A DNA stretch of 64,000 bases from Microbacterium paraoxydans. Its GTDB lineage: Bacteria > Actinomycetota > Actinomycetes > Actinomycetales > Microbacteriaceae. The notes below the pieces were generated by a model. The model did no database searches, was not told the DNA's origin, and saw nothing but the letters and a program-made list of their open reading frames with translations. Below, piece by piece: positions 19,021 through 21,241 of the stretch. Numbering within the stretch: position 1 is the first letter of the stretch; each line of letters opens with the position of its first letter. A program made the position numbers and the translations under genes. The stretch is from the NCBI RefSeq assembly GCF_900105335.1, contig NZ_LT629770.1, forward strand, positions 3,038,001 through 3,102,000, in the 5' to 3' direction.

Positions 19021-20094
19021 GTGAGCGCGCAGGGGGGAGAGCCGCCGACGGTCAGTGTGTCGATCCGGGCGGCTTCGGGCCAGGAGAGGCGCGCAGAGCA
19101 GCTCGCGGAACAACTCGACGGTGCTTTCGTCCGCATCTGCCGAACGGGGGCGGATGCCGGAGCCTTCGCCGAGGCGTGGCAGCCGTGGACCCGACGGGCG
19201 ACCCACCACATGGTCCTGGACGCCGCAGTGCGCCCGCACCCGCGTCTCGTCGCGCAGGTGCACGAAGCCGTGGGAGGACGGCCCAGGGCCGCCCTGCGGT
19301 TCTTCACCCCCGGAGACGGCTATGCCTCGCACGCCCTCCGGCTGGCGGCTTTCGCCGGCTATCCGTGGCTCCTGCCGCCCGGACCCGATCCGACGTCGAT
19401 CGCCGTGGTGCTGCCGATTCCCGAGGCGGCGGAGTTCGCCCGTTCCGTCCCGGCGGGCGACGACACTCCTGAGGGCGTGCTGCTCCAGCGGTTCGCGGAG
19501 GAGCGAGGACTCGCCCTGCTCGCGAGCACAGCCGATCTCGTGCAACGCGACGGGCCGGGGGCGCACGCTCCGGCCACCGCCTTCCTGCCCGCCGCGGTCG
19601 CCCCCGCGGAGTGGTGGCGACGGGACACGCTCCAGGCGCCATCGCTGATCCCTGTGGTGCATCTGCGAGACGGGCAGCCGCTGTCGTACGAGGCTGTGCC
19701 GGGTACGTCGGACGGCTGGCGGCTTCGTCCGCGCCGAGATGTGCCGACACCGCACGCCCGCCGGTTCGCGCGGGTGATGCACGAACGGCTTCTGGGCACG
19801 GAGGTCGCTCGCAGCCACCTCCGGGCGGCGGCTGTACTCCTCGGCGTGGCGGGAGTGTTGCGCGACCAGCTCCTCCTCGCAGCGGCGTGGGGGCGGCCGT
19901 CCGAGGGGTTCGGCGCGGCCGTAGCCCGGGAATCGGCGGCGACCCTCGCACTCGGGACGCTGGCGGAGGCCGTTCCGGCAGCGCGTCGTCCGGACGGTGC
20001 GGCGGAGCTCCGGGAGACGTTCGAGGCGCTGTACGAGGAGATGACCGCCATCCTCCGCGGATCGCCCCGGCCGGAGCATGGAGCCGATCCATAG
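19021..20094 (+). CDS. Uncharacterised protein, possibly related to GT-A-type glycosyltransferases
   Basis: A 357-residue soluble protein that I cannot assign firmly. Its first 110 residues read like the start of a GT-A-type fold: VSVSIRAASGQERRAEQLAEQL, then ATHHMVLDAAVRPHPRLVAQVHEAVGGRPRAALRFF. In related actinobacterial proteins this position usually has an acidic DD pair after the VL. Here it is DAA, so any metal-dependent transfer chemistry is doubtful. The C-terminal half is helical. The GTG has a strong GGGAGGAGG site and a good upstream promoter. It is followed by the manganese riboswitch, which belongs to the next gene. Confidence 0.6.
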   Translation: MSAQGGEPPTVSVSIRAASGQERRAEQLAEQLDGAFVRICRTGADAGAFAEAWQPWTRRATHHMVLDAAVRPHPRLVAQVHEAVGGRPRAALRFFTPGDGYASHALRLAAFAGYPWLLPPGPDPTSIAVVLPIPEAAEFARSVPAGDDTPEGVLLQRFAEERGLALLASTADLVQRDGPGAHAPATAFLPAAVAPAEWWRRDTLQAPSLIPVVHLRDGQPLSYEAVPGTSDGWRLRPRRDVPTPHARRFARVMHERLLGTEVARSHLRAAAVLLGVAGVLRDQLLLAAAWGRPSEGFGAAVARESAATLALGTLAEAVPAARRPDGAAELRETFEALYEEMTAILRGSPRPEHGADP

Positions 20095-20115
20095 GCCGCC
20101 TCACTAGCGTGTGGA

Positions 20116-20216
20116 GGGCAAGGGGAGTACTCCCGTCTGCAGCGAGGTCGTCATGACGGGCATGTCATCGTGCCCCGGCCCGCTGGCCCGCGAGGGTGGA
20201 GGAGACCTTGGCGCCC
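20116..20216 (+). ncRNA. yybP-ykoY manganese riboswitch
   Basis: The element matches the Mn2+ aptamer in sequence and structure. P1 is formed by GGGC (20116-20119) plus AAGG (20120-20123) with CCTT (20206-20209) plus GCCC (20213-20216). The signature GGGGAGTA lies at 20122-20129 and the partner loop AGACCTT at 20203-20209. P3 pairs CAGCG and GGTC (20140-20149, one bulged A) with GGCC and CGCTG (20177-20185). The inner hairpin GGGCA/TGCCC (20158-20175) sits between GTCATGAC and CCGG, as in the Lactococcus lactis aptamer. A -10-like TAGCGT at 20105-20110 would start transcription at about 20117. It precedes the gene at 20292 by 75 nt. Confidence 0.9.
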
Positions 20217-20291
20217 GCATCGCGGGCTGCCCGGAACCTTGCGTCGACCGACGTCGCGGAGAACGGCGGCCCGTCCCACGAACGGACCCCC

Positions 20292-21164
20292 ATGTCGAAA
20301 CTCTCCCGCCTGATCCGCCTCGCCACCGACGCCCTCGATGCGAAGGGTGCGAGCCCCGCCGCGAGGGGCGGGGAGGGCTCCCGTTCCTCGACGGATTGGA
20401 GCGGGATGATCCGTGGCGCCGTGGATGCCGTCCGTGGCCCCGGTGCCGAGGGGCCGCGCCCGAACGCCCCGTCTCCCGCCTCGTCGTCGGCCGGCGGCCC
20501 TGCCGCGGGGCGACCGTCGACCTCGTACGCGCCGCCGCCTGCCCCCGGTTCCGGTGGTCGGCCGGACACCTCCGCGGCGGACCGTGCGGCCATCGCCCGG
20601 TACGACTACCTCCTGCAGACGGCGGACCCGCACCGCGTCGAGCAGATCCATCGCGAGGCCTTCGCCCGTCTCACGCCGTCGCAGCGGGAGCAGGTCGAGG
20701 CCCGCATGCGAGCCGAGCTCCCCGCCGAAGAGCGACCGCGCTCCTCCTCCGCGGACGACCTCGCCCGCGCGGCGGGCCGCGCCGAGGCGATGCAGCCGGG
20801 CCGTCTGCGCGGCCTCCTCTCCCGGGTCCGGGGCGCCGGCGCGGGTGGGGCCGCGGTCGCCGCCGGCGGTGCGGCGGTCGGCCTGCTGGGTGTGGTGGCC
20901 GGCGGGGCCGTCCTGAGCACCGTGGCGGCACCCCTCCTGGAACAGGCTGCAGGCCTCGGGGTGGACTTCGACGCATGGGCGCAGGGCATCGACATCGACG
21001 CCCTCGCCTCCGGCGTCGACGTCGATGCGCTGGCCGGTGGCGCCGACGAGATGCTCGGCTCGGCCGGCGAGGCCGTCTCGGGACTCGGCGAGACGGCGAC
21101 CGGCTGGGGAGAGCGGCTCGGCGATCTCGGCATCCCGGGGATCGGCGACATCCTCGGCCGCTGA
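20292..21164 (+). CDS. Uncharacterised protein downstream of the Mn2+ riboswitch
   Basis: A 290-residue protein of unknown function. It has a basic N-terminus (MSKLSRLIRLATDALDAKG), a long Pro/Gly/Ser-rich linker to about residue 95, and a conserved-looking helical block RYDYLLQTADPHRVEQIHREAFARL...EQVEARMRAELP. A Gly/Ala-rich hydrophobic segment follows (about 185-220, likely one membrane hairpin), then a Gly/Asp-rich C-terminus with DIDALASGVDVDALAGG. Relatives in actinobacteria are sometimes labelled cation-transporting ATPase, but no ATPase motif is present. Control by manganese implies a role in Mn2+ handling, which is inference. I chose the ATG at 20292 because the frame upstream runs through the riboswitch. 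Confidence 0.7.
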   Translation: MSKLSRLIRLATDALDAKGASPAARGGEGSRSSTDWSGMIRGAVDAVRGPGAEGPRPNAPSPASSSAGGPAAGRPSTSYAPPPAPGSGGRPDTSAADRAAIARYDYLLQTADPHRVEQIHREAFARLTPSQREQVEARMRAELPAEERPRSSSADDLARAAGRAEAMQPGRLRGLLSRVRGAGAGGAAVAAGGAAVGLLGVVAGGAVLSTVAAPLLEQAAGLGVDFDAWAQGIDIDALASGVDVDALAGGADEMLGSAGEAVSGLGETATGWGERLGDLGIPGIGDILGR

Positions 21165-21168
21165 CGGG

Positions 21169-21241
21169 TGCCCCCGCTGGGACTCGAACCCAGACTGAAG
21201 CGATTTTAAGTCGCCTGCCTCTGCCATTGGGCTACGGGGGC
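21169..21241 (-). tRNA. tRNA with anticodon UAA (Leu by codon), short variable arm
   Basis: The 73-nt cloverleaf is complete on the reverse strand. It has a perfect 7-bp acceptor stem (GCCCCCG/CGGGGGC), a D arm with GG in the loop, anticodon stem GGCGA/TCGCT around the loop CTTAAAA, a 5-nt variable region TCAGT, a T arm CTGGG-TTCGAGT-CCCAG, and discriminator A. The anticodon at positions 34-36 is TAA (21208-21206), reading the leucine codon UUA. Bacterial leucine tRNAs normally have a long variable arm, which this one lacks. CCA is not encoded. It begins 5 bp from the convergent stop of the preceding gene. Confidence 0.88.

Follow-up and report, generated by a model that had tools for sequence, protein, structure and literature searches.

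Riboswitches of the yybP-ykoY class (RF00080) are the closest described counterparts of the leader RNA analysed here, and the targets of the class named in the available parts of PMC9495176 and PMC13274385 are transporters or membrane exporters. In the accessible text of PMC9190785, the manganese site of the L. lactis aptamer is described with residues G9, U39, C40, A41, U44 and C45. According to the corresponding part of a review (PMC9495176), a pneumococcal yybP-ykoY aptamer binds Ca2+ more tightly than Mn2+, and in V. parahaemolyticus a terC gene under the same RNA class is manganese-induced, as stated in the available part of PMC13274385, which also lists Alx, YkoY and YceF among the members of the TerC family. 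For an actinobacterium, the accessible part of PMC3890552 reports that C. glutamicum terC has an RF00080 leader whose transcript was observed by RNA-seq, and that of the three leaders predicted in that organism the two besides that of terC were not observed.

The window (the whole 64,000-nt stretch of DNA that was analysed) contains a structured leader that is kept by evolution, is found before terC genes and is tied in one genus, Microbacterium, to an orphan gene. Most likely, a compact manganese-type riboswitch controls an undescribed protein that belongs to the TerC regulon and is probably associated with the membrane, with Mn2+ as the presumed ligand, ON as the presumed direction of switching and manganese handling as the presumed function. 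The sequence-only reading had proposed such a riboswitch and had set a match to the RF00080 covariance model as the test, with the lack of a match as a refutation; it was found that RF00080 (Rfam 15) gave no match to the leader at E ≤ 10, which taken literally goes against the proposal. Because RF00080 scores nothing on the leader, a covariance model built from the leaders of the orphan gene themselves (R1) was needed. The features of the locus are as follows.

20105 to 20110, plus strand: TAGCGT, probable -10 hexamer, with the start of transcription at about 20117; T, A and the final T almost unchanged across 28 aligned leaders.
20117 to 20212, plus strand: putative compact manganese-type (yybP-ykoY-like) riboswitch aptamer; covariation, and 110.4 bits with R1, to whose training set the window belongs.
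20119 to 20123, plus strand: P1 5′ strand CAAGG, partner CCTTG at 20206 to 20210; 91% of the helix cells paired.
20122 to 20129, plus strand: L1 loop GGGGAGTA; invariant in 31 leaders.
20130 to 20133, plus strand: P1.2 5′ strand CTCC, partner GGAG at 20198 to 20201; covariation.
20140 to 20144, plus strand: P3 5′ strand, partner at 20181 to 20185; covarying, with changes on both sides in 5 of 9 pairs.
20150 to 20158, plus strand: L3 loop GTCANNACG; invariant columns.
20158 to 20175, plus strand: inner hairpin (20158 to 20164 with 20169 to 20175); covarying, with changes on both sides in 6 of 7 pairs.
20186 to 20197, plus strand: short hairpin CCC-GCGA-GGG with closing pair G20186-T20197; from the leader alignment and fold.
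20203 to 20210, plus strand: AGACCTTG, the 3′ side of L1 and the P1 3′ strand; alignment and covariation.
20214 to 20226, plus strand: hairpin H2 (CCCGC/GCGGG), 3′ of the aptamer; covarying in 24 leaders.
20292 to 21164, plus strand: orphan 290-aa protein with an N-terminal helix, a linker, a helical core, a Gly/Ala-rich helix (197 to 221) and an Asp-rich tail; from conservation and AlphaFold2.

The fold of the leader was evaluated in an alignment of 31 sequences, namely the window and 30 homologous loci; of 32 homologous loci, only L028 and L030 were without the leader. The aligned leaders share P1, P1.2, a long arm with the inner hairpin and a short hairpin with a GCGA cap, all within a compact 96 nt. 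For the covariation statistics, identical rows were merged, leaving 29 distinct leaders, in which pairing was kept in 97.9% of cells and 13 of 29 pairs had changed on both sides, a number that was as high in 0 of 500 shuffles. The covariation score was 0.256 compared to 0.141 in the shuffles, 0 of 500 reaching the value of the leader, and in slid controls at most 2 pairs had changed on both sides. An example of a compensatory change is P1.2 of L029, which reads TTCC/GGAA. Both loops and AGACCTT (20203 to 20209) were all found in the leader, and so the yybP-ykoY-type loops, P1, P3 and inner hairpin of the sequence-only reading are present as sequence elements, in a fold that covaries. The -10 hexamer, which had been placed so that transcription starts at P1, was partly borne out: TAGCGT is at the right distance with three near-invariant positions, but a sigma-70 consensus scan found no promoter site there. 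A CAYAGG element (20090 to 20095 in the window, where it shares bases with the stop codon of the preceding ORF) is kept 9 to 10 nt 5′ of the -10 in most of the 28 aligned leaders, in some as CACAGG; its spacing from the -10 does not match a -35 position.

The failure of RF00080 was not particular to the leader. There was nothing over the gathering threshold of 45 bits in the window, no match in the window's own genome (0 of 1) or in 10 related loci, and a negative result for 16 R1-bearing loci. Among 296 genomes of the class (class and order here being the groups around the window's genome), RF00080 at E ≤ 0.001 gave places in 7, and in none over the cut-off (0/296, with the stricter filters); all 7 of these sub-threshold places coincide with R1 matches, 6 of them at E ≤ 1.2e-5 and one (L112) weak at 0.0034. 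The E. coli mntP leader, when scored by RF00080, itself reached 41.6 against the cut-off of 45. Because the model is over its cut-off in 0 of 296 class genomes and even falls short on E. coli mntP, we read the miss as low sensitivity of the model for these leaders. Searched with R1 at E ≤ 10, the E. coli mntP leader gave no match.

The distribution of R1 at E ≤ 0.001 was 94 of 150 genomes of the family Microbacteriaceae, 124 of 149 genomes of Microbacterium, 76 of 149 genomes of the order and 174 of 296 genomes of the class (stricter filters). Compared to the 0 of 296 over the cut-off with RF00080 under the same filters, the last number points to a common actinobacterial manganese-type leader that is missed by Rfam 15; RF00080 detects very few leaders of the R1 type, and the Rfam family could be extended. 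The window's own genome has three R1 copies, of which the other two precede PF03741 TerC genes. Among 77 R1 loci that were inspected (a non-random set of the best matches plus 19 manual choices), a terC gene lay at most 400 nt downstream in 68, both other copies of the window's own genome among them, the orphan gene in 5 and neither in 4, and 13 more strong R1 matches that were hand-picked in the genus (L156 to L168) all precede terC. From these sequence comparisons we conclude that R1 represents an actinobacterial branch of the yybP-ykoY class, and the leader would be a compact actinobacterial form of the manganese riboswitch, with Mn2+ as its putative ligand. Two of the inspected leaders deserve mention. 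At L076 (1501 to 1966), an R1 leader stands ahead of a small-protein ORF with an LPGPGLVV stretch rather than terC, and its P1 3′ strand CCTTGTG is complementary to CACAAGG before the start; at L110 (2556 to 2790), the R1 leader is followed by the apparent start of a broken terC.

With regard to the ligand, the positions were mapped on the L. lactis sequence. On this mapping, we take A20153 to be the equivalent of the Mn-sensing A41, and five of the six named residues, G9, U39, C40, A41 and C45, are presumably matched by bases that are invariant in the 31 leaders, the position of U44 presumably being an A. We infer that Mn2+ is the ligand of the leader RNA. It is improbable, in our estimation, that the aptamer senses another input, for example pH or a different divalent metal: the base at position 44 differs from that of L. 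lactis, and the Ca2+ preference reported for the pneumococcal aptamer in the available part of PMC9495176 is a precedent, but none of the 31 leaders varies in L1 or in the GTCA core that holds the A41 equivalent, the element precedes terC, and the terC gene of V. parahaemolyticus under the same RNA class is, in the accessible text of PMC13274385, induced by manganese.

The longest ORF downstream opens at a GTG at 20196, within the aptamer; conservation begins at the ATG at 20292, and therefore the protein is taken as 290 residues, encoded by 20292 to 21164. A tRNA-Leu (taa) gene on the minus strand (21167 to 21241 in the window) begins 3 bases past its stop codon. The protein had no match in Pfam, even at E ≤ 10, or in NCBIfam, whereas in the Pfam control the TerC genes of the same genome matched PF03741. 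Therefore, it is not a recognizable MntP, TerC or P-type ATPase, which agrees with the sequence-only reading that the gene resembles none of the known targets. AlphaFold2 was confident only at about residues 111 to 170, within a helical stretch from 95 to 181, and gave low confidence to the Gly/Ala-rich helix and the Asp-rich tail; a fold search gave no match. The Gly/Ala-rich hydrophobic stretch suggests that the protein is probably membrane-anchored.

Among 32 named homologous records, 31 were from Microbacterium and 1 from a Microbacteriaceae bacterium, the nearest with 97% identity, and the 120 homologues listed of 506 are, where named, either "cation-transporting ATPase" or hypothetical. 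One record (P0080), filed under the fungus Penicillium discolor, has 86% identity over 62% of the query and is probably bacterial contamination. The ATPase name stands in many NCBI records, but a protein of only 290 aa in which neither Pfam at E ≤ 10 nor NCBIfam finds a domain, where an ATPase domain should show, has next to no chance of being a cation-transporting ATPase. A larger family of short forms has the same core motif; for one of these forms, at least 4693 homologues were counted, and one short-form record is named DUF2076 domain-containing. Judging by titles and the openings of abstracts, the literature search yielded no report of the orphan gene or of a riboswitch-linked homologue.

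The linkage of leader and gene was evaluated in 149 Microbacterium genomes, in which protein matches of at least 160 bits were counted as the long form and R1 less than 400 nt upstream on the same strand as direct linkage; the count covers R1 matches to about E 3e-9 with part of the weaker ones, and 89 of 101 protein matches. Among these listed matches, 57 of 63 long forms had R1 directly upstream, 2 had it 1.1 and 2.1 kb upstream, and 4 were without it; the inclusion of a frame-broken copy behind a leader in genome G489 makes the direct number 58 of 64. The four leaderless loci (L152 to L155) were searched again for R1 and were still negative. Short paralogues with the leader numbered 0 of 25 among the matches listed.

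In a family sample of 19 protein matches of at least 144 bits (L119 to L137), of which the 1.5-kb flanks were searched with R1, a strong R1 match was present in 6 loci, directly upstream in 2, both Microbacterium, and with terC in between in 4; R1 was absent from the 1.5-kb flanks of the other 13. Outside the genus, therefore, 4 of 17 long forms in this sample had R1 within the flank and 13 were unlinked, and two long forms in another family of the order were both unlinked to R1. Across the Microbacteriaceae, direct linkage thus holds within the genus (57/63 among the matches listed), but linkage extends to only 4 of 17 long forms outside it. The order riboswitch-terC-gene was found at L121, L123, L126 and L127, in three other genera, and at L150 in Microbacterium. 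At L149 (1578 to 1892), two riboswitches diverge from each other on opposite strands, one toward terC and the other toward the orphan gene, and at L151 a riboswitch and terC are followed by the orphan gene 1.1 kb further on. In a tree of the short leader RNAs, which bears on terC loss as opposed to riboswitch duplication, the gene's 30 distinct leaders did not form a single supported clade.

The genus linkage, among the matches listed, and the riboswitch-terC-gene orders support the orphan gene as a probable undescribed target of a manganese riboswitch. Because leaders of this type mostly precede terC, and because the gene adjoins terC in some relatives, it may also contribute to manganese handling in a way so far undescribed; these neighbours strengthen the link that the sequence-only reading had drawn, but the role itself stays an inference. 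A riboswitch that works in front of a membrane or envelope protein merely needed at high Mn2+, and not a manganese-handling factor, would fit the 13 of 17 unlinked long forms outside the genus and the large, leaderless family of short-form paralogues (at least 4693 homologues of one form; 0 of 25 linked among the matches listed). However, without a shared role it would be difficult to account for the riboswitch-terC-gene order, seen in three further genera and once within Microbacterium itself, or for the divergent riboswitch pair, and we regard a mere need at high Mn2+ as rather unlikely.

The expression platform was sought in both groups of leaders. A P1 3′ strand complementary to the Shine-Dalgarno region is a feature of many terC leaders, most of them from outside the family of the window; in L069 the complement is 10 nt long and ends four bases ahead of the start codon. 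Averaged over 76 terC leaders, the longest complement had a mean of 5.4 nt compared to 3.4 nt in mononucleotide shuffles, with 35 of 76 at p ≤ 0.05 (per single leader and uncorrected); the start codons were picked partly for their Shine-Dalgarno sequences, four genes were counted twice, and the terC leader L092 of the window's own genome was missed by the search pattern and left out. Since the P1 3′ strand is complementary to the Shine-Dalgarno region in these terC leaders, P1 stabilized by Mn2+ would free the site, giving a translational ON switch. In the orphan gene's own leaders, an anti-Shine-Dalgarno role found no support for the P1 3′ strand (4.2 compared to 4.5 shuffled, in 31 leaders) or for the P1 5′ strand (4.35 compared to 4.50). 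In most of them the spacer is longer instead and contains a hairpin, for which covariation was seen in 24 aligned leaders. Shine-Dalgarno hairpins evaluated by minimum free energy, with a crude choice of site, gave a mixed outcome, and no intrinsic terminator was found in the window leader. Therefore, with neither a P1/Shine-Dalgarno complement nor a terminator, the aptamer is well supported but the expression platform is not.

The lack of a clear platform in the gene's leaders, together with the riboswitch-terC-gene order kept in relatives, would fit a decaying remnant that no longer regulates the gene after the loss of terC from the operon. Yet decay is at odds with compensation in 13 of the 29 pairs, invariant loops and a leader retained by 57 of 63 genes among the matches listed, and we hold this explanation to be very improbable.

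Our preferred explanation, which we consider fairly probable as a whole, is that the leader is a compact yybP-ykoY form switched ON by Mn2+ and that the 290-aa protein belongs to the TerC regulon and aids manganese handling. Through the leader, the protein would share a manganese-responsive regulon with TerC; at high Mn2+, L1 and L3 would dock, the docked loops would stabilize P1, and the gene would be switched on. The protein would then probably assist TerC-linked manganese handling at the membrane. A more specific version, possible but on balance doubtful, is that the protein serves TerC as a dedicated partner anchored in the membrane, such as an Mn2+ buffer or delivery factor acting through its Asp-rich tail and switched on by Mn2+ through a compact aptamer form that the Rfam 15 model misses across Actinomycetes; if true, Mn2+ efflux or metalation would have a component not described before. 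A retained target of an unknown kind, sometimes beside terC, offers a way into the question of how TerC proteins are partnered in these bacteria.

Compared to described yybP-ykoY riboswitches, the leader shares P1, the L1 sequence GGGGAGUA with AGACC, invariant in 31 leaders, the putative Mn-sensing adenosine in the GUCA of L3 and a position ahead of terC; it differs in its compactness, in its L3 (GUCANNACG), in being unscored by the Rfam 15 model and in a downstream gene that is not a known target. The crystallized yybP-ykoY aptamer is a four-way junction, according to the available part of PMC11087558, whereas the helices are fewer here, where P1 encloses a junction of P1.2, P3 with the inner hairpin and one side hairpin, which covary. 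The C. glutamicum cg2157 terC leader is similar by its description in the accessible part of PMC3890552 as an actinobacterial manganese-type leader, and its transcript was observed there; it differs in scoring 49.1 bits with the older RF00080 used in that paper and in driving terC. The TerC family (PF03741) shares the leader type with the orphan gene and is its neighbour, or the other half of a divergent pair, in some relatives, whereas the protein here is not a TerC and is without a Pfam match. Finally, the short-form actinobacterial homologues share the core motif ..RYxYLLxTAxPxxxEQxHxEAFAxLTPxQR.. and a Gly-rich hydrophobic stretch with the 290-aa protein, but they are shorter, have another tail, often GGGDFGGGDF-like, and, among the matches listed, have no riboswitch upstream.
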